DNA of 55,600 nucleotides from Candidatus Omnitrophota bacterium (GTDB taxonomy: Bacteria; Omnitrophota; Gorgyraeia; Duberdicusellales; 4484-171): assembly GCA_014729775.1 (NCBI GenBank), contig WJJJ01000003.1:1-55600 (forward strand), given 5' to 3'. Below the pieces are notes generated by a model. It ran no database searches and was not told the origin of the DNA. It was given only the letters and a program-made list of their open reading frames with translations. Every line of letters starts with the position of its first letter. The stretch's first letter is position 1. A program made the translations under genes and the position numbers. Shown here in pieces: positions 6,300 through 7,441 of the stretch.

Positions 6300-6361
6300 A
6301 ACCCGAGGCCGAAAGAGGGGATACGTAAGACGCCGTCCTCAGCAACGAATAAGGGGGGGGA

Positions 6362-7441
6362 ATGAATAAAAAGTTCTTGTTTTTCTGCGCCGTGTCCGCG
6401 GCCGTGTTGATCTTCCCGCGAGGGGCGCGTTCCGATTCCAACCAGGAAACTCTTACCTTCACGACATATTATCCTTCTCCTTACGGGGTGTACAAAGCCC
6501 TGGTGATCAGCGAACGCGGGGCGGTCGGGGATCTGAACCAGGATAACATGGTGAATGTGGATGATCTTCCGATTGATCCACACAACGACCCGCTGACCGG
6601 CTCATTCGCGGTTTCGCATTTTCTCGGAATCGGTACCCGCACGCCGACCACAAATCTCTATATTAAAGAAGGCAGGCCGGAGAACCGGAACCGCCCCGCG
6701 ATGACCATGGAAGATTTGGGAAGCGGGACGAAATTTACCATGGCGTTGAGAACCGGGTCAGGGGGAACGGATAATTTTATGGATTTCTTTTTTCCGGCCG
6801 ATGCCGGTCAGCCCGGTTCGGGAAGGTATATGCGCGTCGATGAACACCGGAACGTGGTGTTCTACGGGAACGCGTTGACCGTGCCTCACAATGAAGAGGA
6901 TCCGGATCTTTCCTGGAACGGGATGATTTATTACAATACCAGGAGCAATACATTCCGGGTGTACGCCAACGGCGTATGGAAGGATATCGGCGGCGGGCCG
7001 GCGTTGCACATGGCGAAAATGGTGCGTGCCGCCGGGCAGAATGTCGGTGAAGCCGGAAAACCAAAGATCTGGCTTGATACGGAAATCTTTGACCACGGAG
7101 GGATTGCCGATCCGGCGAACGGACGATTCGTGATCAGGCAGGACGGGTTGTATTTGGTGACGACCAGCTGGCGCTGTCCTCGATTTGCGCATGCCCACGA
7201 GCAGAGCAGAGACAGCGAGATCATGGTTTACATCATGAAAAACGGCGGCGAAGCGCTTCACGCGGGGGCGTTTGTGAAAGGGCCAGTCGATGAAACCGGC
7301 TATGTGTTAGGGCAGGATGTGCTGTTTTTGCGCGAAAATGACGTAATTCAAATGCATGTGAAACATACCGCCGGGCGTACGATTTCCACGTTGACCGGCA
7401 CGGGAGACCGTCCCAGGATGTCGATCGTTCAAATTAAATAG
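6362..7441 (+). CDS. Secreted protein with TTYYPSPYGVY motif, dockerin-like calcium loop and C1q-like C-terminus
   Basis: Residues 1-24 are a Sec signal peptide (basic start, then FLFFCAVSAAVLIF) ending near RGARS. Right after it lies LTFTTYYPSPYGVYKALVIS, a motif I recall from many predicted secreted proteins of Omnitrophota, function unknown. DLNQDNMVNVDDL (around residues 58-70) has D-x-N-x-D-x-x-V-N-x-x-D spacing like a dockerin/EF-hand calcium loop, but only one copy is evident. From about residue 215 a segment containing FVIRQDGLYLVTTSWRCP, VYIMKNG, VLFLRENDVIQMHV and MSIVQIK looks like a C1q/TNF-type jelly roll. An A-plus-G-rich ribosome site precedes the ATG. A surface binding or appendage role is inference. 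Confidence 0.8.
   Translation: MNKKFLFFCAVSAAVLIFPRGARSDSNQETLTFTTYYPSPYGVYKALVISERGAVGDLNQDNMVNVDDLPIDPHNDPLTGSFAVSHFLGIGTRTPTTNLYIKEGRPENRNRPAMTMEDLGSGTKFTMALRTGSGGTDNFMDFFFPADAGQPGSGRYMRVDEHRNVVFYGNALTVPHNEEDPDLSWNGMIYYNTRSNTFRVYANGVWKDIGGGPALHMAKMVRAAGQNVGEAGKPKIWLDTEIFDHGGIADPANGRFVIRQDGLYLVTTSWRCPRFAHAHEQSRDSEIMVYIMKNGGEALHAGAFVKGPVDETGYVLGQDVLFLRENDVIQMHVKHTAGRTISTLTGTGDRPRMSIVQIK

Follow-up and report, generated by a model that had tools for sequence, protein, structure and literature searches.

A conserved N-terminal tag on exported, fiber-like proteins of Omnitrophota and Elusimicrobiota

The window analyzed here, the whole 55,600-nucleotide stretch at the start of Omnitrophota contig WJJJ01000003.1, contains a real gene that begins with ATG and is flanked by a phosphoglycerate mutase-like (gpmA-like) gene and an mnmG-like gene. 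From its N terminus, the encoded protein carries a signal peptide, ETLTFTTYYPSPYGVY, an Asp-rich loop, a GIGT fiber motif, and a C1q/TNF-like C terminus (Table 1). Along the open reading frame (ORF), ETLTFTTYYPSPYGVYKAL is followed by the Asp-rich loop DLNQDNMVNVDD, then by LGIGTRTPTTNLYI, GMIYYNTRSNTFRVYANGVWKDI, and a beta-rich C-terminal region. Signal peptides were recognized from their hydrophobic stretch and small-x-small sites, not with a trained predictor, and the likely cleavage site of the window protein, placed by eye, is A22-R23-S24/D25. The conserved segment E29-TLTFTTYYPSPYGVY-44 follows. The hydrophobic stretch thus precedes the conserved segment, which differs from the type IV pilin arrangement of a prepilin-peptidase site followed by a hydrophobic helix. 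Segments like GMIYYNTRSNTFRVYANGVWKDI, of the type G-x-x-Y-Y-x, are visible in other tagged members. A PDB sequence search returned nothing relevant. The same genome (G000) encodes two further tagged genes, which lie side by side on a different contig, with a valS-like gene as their neighbor.

Table 1. Coordinates of the tagged gene and its features in the window
Feature	Position	Strand	Basis
Putative G-rich ribosome-binding site	6353..6360	+	GGGGGGGG directly 5' of ATG 6362, read from sequence
Tagged exported fiber-like protein, 359 aa (stop included)	6362..7441	+	ORF; exact self-match in G000:C31
Signal peptide, residues 1-24	6362..6433	+	KK n-region and hydrophobic core, read from sequence; at family level, hydrophobic stretch ahead of tag and small-x-small sites
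Mature N-terminal tag E29-TLTFTTYYPSPYGVYKAL-47	6446..6502	+	Consensus of 214 full-length members; invariant columns in alignments
Asp-rich Ca-loop-like insertion D57-D68	6530..6565	+	Recurs about +19 after YYP elsewhere in the family
LGIGTRTPTTNLYI fiber-shaft motif, residues 88-101	6623..6664	+	GIGT-type motif in 112/204 members; aligned
GMIYYNTRSNTFRVYANGVWKDI segment, residues 187-209	6920..6988	+	Read from sequence
C1q/TNF-like head, residues 210-359	6989..7438	+	PHROG match at 210-348; Foldseek TNF/C1q; homologue L269

To follow the segment beyond this gene, we searched with a degenerate DNA pattern for YYPxP[YF]G, using the reversed pattern as a control; a second pattern also fixed T at -1 and Y/F at +8. 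The first pattern matched the window once at 0 mismatches and the window's genome three times, against none for the reversed control. In frame, it was found in 255 distinct ORFs, 244 of which have a strongly hydrophobic stretch no more than 60 residues upstream, mostly starting 24 to 28 residues before YYP. Of the remaining 11, three are chance matches (L120, L121, and L245), one (L081) has a disrupted start, and the others are truncated where their contigs end. Small-x-small sites lie 7 to 15 residues before YYP in 163/165 Omnitrophota members. Member sets were drawn by the motif itself, and conservation of the searched letters is no independent evidence. Full-length members, however, share the extended consensus E-x-[IL]-T-[LI]-T-T-Y-Y-P-[AS]-P-[YF]-G-x-Y-x-x-[LM], in which several unforced positions are conserved: E at -7 (86%), T at -4 (80%), T at -2 (81%), I/L at -5 and -3, and a semiconserved L/M at +11. 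The family is defined here by the presence of E-x-[IL]-T-x-T-T-Y-Y-P-[AS]-P-[YF]-G-x-Y no more than about 20 residues behind a signal peptide, and residues 1 to 44 of the window protein fit this definition. Sequence comparison confirms the tag as a true feature, predicted to lie at a fixed place near the mature N terminus of a large exported family. The initial annotation had proposed a tag for a family of surface proteins, and its fixed place after the signal peptide, the export of its carriers, and their differing C termini all hold. We also looked for the motif at random positions, or in unrelated phyla without a signal peptide, and neither pattern emerged. The motif was not described in the literature searched. 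In several Elusimicrobial members, L207, L217, and L211 among them, a conserved CWHPG-type stretch closes the hydrophobic segment before SETLTLTTYYP. This is unusual for an ordinary cleaved signal peptide and could mark a special site of processing or a segment that stays uncleaved as an anchor.

The motif had initially been taken for a hallmark of Omnitrophota, but it is not exclusive to that phylum. The tag pattern is present in 148/384 Omnitrophota genomes (the reversed pattern in 7 of the genomes listed) and also in 37/248 Elusimicrobiota genomes, where the control gave 0 matches, and we have rejected the single-phylum reading. A scan of 84,980 species' genomes returned at least 112 stretches with the tag; those among the matches listed belong to Omnitrophota and Elusimicrobiota, apart from a few mislabeled records and one chance match. 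A Planctomycetes record (L237, with the same Bin_37 label as L242) was reassigned to Omnitrophota, since its phylum sample gives the same matches as G002 and G018, and the Bdellovibrionia hit L245 is the chance match, with no signal peptide. The remaining exception is L243 (JAMDEM010000044.1), a 5.6-kb contig labeled Bacillota that encodes a tagged protein; it represents the sole tag-bearing genome of 23 sampled in its phylum and is likely misbinned. The tag is absent from the viral contigs, phages, and plasmids searched, which indicates that the tagged genes are cellular. Together with the signal peptide and the housekeeping neighbors, this led us to reject a phage or provirus origin. Tandem tagged paralogues occur in several genomes, and two small genomes show strong amplification of tagged genes, G104 (L141-L143) with 9 exact matches and G163 (L127-L131) with 14.

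Behind the tag, the window protein was initially described as carrying a dockerin-like calcium loop. The loop itself (D57-LNQDNMVNVDD-68) is present, but no dockerin domain is joined to it. In 39/162 Omnitrophota members, a D-rich, Ca-loop-like pattern begins between +15 and +40, while its density elsewhere is 0.052 per equal stretch; the pattern is absent at this place from the 42 Elusimicrobial members. Judged from these patterns, the Asp-rich loop is an insertion that recurs behind the tag, at about +19 after YYP. The window protein has no Pfam Dockerin match and a single loop rather than the two duplicated Ca-binding segments of dockerin type I (PF00404), and just 1/150 members gave a weak Dockerin_1 match. 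For these reasons a dockerin module was rejected.

The jelly-roll, C1q-like C terminus that had been proposed for the window protein fared better. Residues 210 to 348 match PHROG virion structural/minor tail families (E=3e-5 and 1.5e-3), and a Foldseek search with the AF2 model recovered TNF/C1q domains at a probability of 1.00 (best E=3e-4), although the Pfam C1q curated cutoff was not reached (12.8 bits versus 23.7; E=0.14). Matches to viral structures were tail fibers and C1q-domain proteins. The AF2 model has a mean pLDDT of only 58, with C-terminal values of about 50 to 84, so the predicted C1q/TNF jelly roll is supported as a fold assignment and not as a detailed structure. One other tagged member, L269, has the same head. 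The C1q/TNF fold is trimeric in known members. The window C terminus thus has its fold in common with C1q/TNF heads such as those of C1QL3, adiponectin, and collagen VIII NC1, and with phage and bacterial C1q-like tips, to which the PHROG structural families also link it. Unlike C1q/TNF heads, the window protein falls below the Pfam cutoff and shows no collagen repeat.

Other members end differently. At 70% identity, the 212 full-length proteins reduce to 204, which form 96 groups by their last 100 residues, so that a survey of C-terminal domains, as had been suggested for tagged proteins, reveals very varied tips that are swapped from member to member. Among 150 members, Pfam identified Peptidase_S74 in 25, Peptidase_G2 in 3, and YadA_head in 3, while PHROG tail-fiber families matched up to 58/150 members for one family; Ata-type matches were found in 3 tagged members, and further C termini are Gly-rich or Cys-rich. 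Shaft sequences directly after the tag are very diverse. The chain beyond the tag is thus freely exchanged, with the tag alone common to all members. S74 and G2 domains are C-terminal chaperones of trimeric fibers, and because of this the tagged family is best read as exported fibers. Its S74 C termini, tail-fiber PHROG matches, and GIGT-type shaft motifs resemble those of phage tail fibers and spikes with endosialidase-type chaperones; in contrast to these, the tagged genes are cellular and encode a Sec signal peptide and the tag, and the window member lacks Peptidase_S74 by Pfam. Similarly, the YadA_head repeats and Ata-type matches recall the trimeric autotransporter adhesins YadA and Ata, but the Pfam families listed for tagged members include no YadA-type C-terminal membrane anchor, and the window protein has no Pfam match to one.

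Taken together, we propose, with a probability of roughly 45%, that these proteins form an undescribed family of Sec-exported modular fibers, probably trimeric, in which the tag is a foot and the heads are interchangeable. After removal of the signal peptide, the chain would begin, within a few residues of its new N terminus, with a short beta-strand/turn tag of the form E-x-I-T-I-T-T-Y-Y-P-[AS]-P-[YF]-G-x-Y. As a common foot, the tag would attach every fiber to one shared partner at the cell surface, while the shaft, with its GIGT segments, and the C-terminal tip would be exchanged among members. The tip, C1q/TNF-like in the window protein and elsewhere an S74/G2 chaperone, a YadA-like head, or a Gly-rich or Cys-rich end, may be responsible for adhesion. 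Because the tag is the sole universal part and lies at the opposite end from the variable heads, it is most economically read as a foot or anchor. Against this reading, no tag-binding partner was identified, and the tag has no structure in AF2 monomer models of two members (pLDDT below 50).

The same models bear on a second explanation: the tag would form the first strand of a trimeric shaft and cap it, nucleating or closing the fiber without a receptor of its own, and its conservation would reflect one folding unit. The alternating I-T-I-T-T would suit a beta strand, and the semiconserved L/M at +11 would continue the unit; AF2, however, shows no strand at the tag, and the diverse shaft sequences right behind it disfavor one invariant cap, which leaves this explanation unlikely. 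We regard it as less probable still that the tag is a donor strand joining subunits end to end. Chaperone-usher and TasA-type pilins do polymerize through N-terminal extensions, and an extended alternating segment at the mature N terminus, together with the tandem tagged paralogues, would be in keeping with such a role. The 96 C-terminal groups, however, imply no shared groove-bearing domain to receive the tag, and no chaperone or usher was recognized among recurrent neighbors.

Alternatively, the tag could be an export or sorting address for an outer-membrane secretion machine rather than an anchor. In this it would work like the short N-terminal secretion segment (N22) that the curlin CsgA carries at its mature N terminus after a Sec signal peptide, a comparison of function that claims no sequence relation. 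The strong conservation of the tag, its place close behind the signal peptide, and its independence of the downstream domains fit such an address, and both secretion systems and pilus systems have been reported for Omnitrophota (PMC10066038). Apart from hxs genes, however, the neighbors are mostly housekeeping genes, and we consider an address unlikely, though slightly more probable than a cap. The same report describes Omnitrophota as ultrasmall cells that bear pili, show host-dependent traits, and encode giant adhesin-like ORFs (PMC10066038); adhesive fibers would be useful in that lifestyle, which is context and not proof.

A co-occurring processing enzyme had been suggested as something to look for near tagged genes, and a recurrent partner was found in the His-Xaa-Ser radical-SAM system (HxsA, HxsB, HxsC, and HxsD). 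Genes around the Omnitrophota tagged genes were predicted by a simple ORF rule, and the neighbor clusters shared by the largest number of genomes were an HxsD-like protein, directly adjacent, and the radical-SAM enzyme HxsB, two genes off, each in 11 genomes. NCBIfam assigned HxsD at 71.8 bits (cutoff, 50), HxsB at 503 (cutoff, 370), and HxsA4 at 74 (cutoff, 55). HxsD is present in 35/384 Omnitrophota genomes, and about 20 of the 30 hxsD loci read there have a tagged gene alongside, as counted from the listed output. At the genome level, the tag accompanies HxsD in 23/35 Omnitrophota genomes versus 125/349 without it (P=8e-4), and in Elusimicrobiota HxsD occurs in 34/37 tagged versus 21/211 untagged genomes (P=6e-24); both values are indicative, since the genomes are related. 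An HxsD match lies within 4 kb of 32/48 Elusimicrobial tagged genes. Linked tagged and hxs genes lie on the same strand in 45/45 pairs, and a Cys falls within the last 12 residues of 43/45 linked members (32/32 Elusimicrobial and 11/13 Omnitrophota) versus 43/103 unlinked ones. Tag variants beside HxsD include TTYFPSPNG and TTFYPAPNG, so the exact pattern undercounts the family, and several linkage counts rest on exact matches. In L327, L329, and L334, tandem genes with a strict (TTYYPSPFG) and a relaxed (TTYFPSPNG) tag precede hxsD.

The cassettes in L212 and L216 run from the tagged gene through hxsD and hxsB to a membrane-anchored or exported protein and a (His-x-Ser)n peptide. The extra protein between hxsB and the repeat peptide is poorly conserved (cassettes L216:2777-6349 and L212:2246-5857), and an Omnitrophota copy (L083:8912-9634) matched no NCBIfam family. 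HxsA-like repeat peptides at L216:2777-3127, L212:5537-5857, and L144:2674-3078 end in GGWC or GGGWC, which places a Cys near the C terminus of both the repeat peptide and the linked tagged protein. For other HxsD genes no tagged neighbor was detected, so that the tag characterizes one branch of the system. Conversely, unlike its hxs-linked relatives, the window gene has no hxs gene beside it and its genome has no HxsD match, as is the case for 125/148 tagged Omnitrophota genomes; the tag therefore does not require the Hxs system. For the same reason we deem it highly improbable that the radical-SAM enzymes recognize or modify the tag itself. Tight same-strand linkage in two phyla would fit such a role, but the cassettes encode their own His-x-Ser repeat peptide. 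In the foot reading, a subset of members, including most of those in Elusimicrobiota, is encoded with the His-Xaa-Ser system and may hold or present its modified peptide. Tentatively, and with the odds against it, we suggest further that TTYYPxPYG proteins are the surface scaffold of a distinct, fiber-type branch of the system. The exported fiber, with its Cys near the C terminus, would hold or display the modified His-Xaa-Ser repeat peptide on the cell surface, and the tag would serve as the foot of these and of unlinked adhesive fibers alike.

The literature searched reported no function for the His-Xaa-Ser system and described no exported tagged fiber as its partner; the linkage found here gives the system a recurrent exported partner. 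The tag also provides a searchable N-terminal signature for an exported fiber family in two little-cultured phyla.
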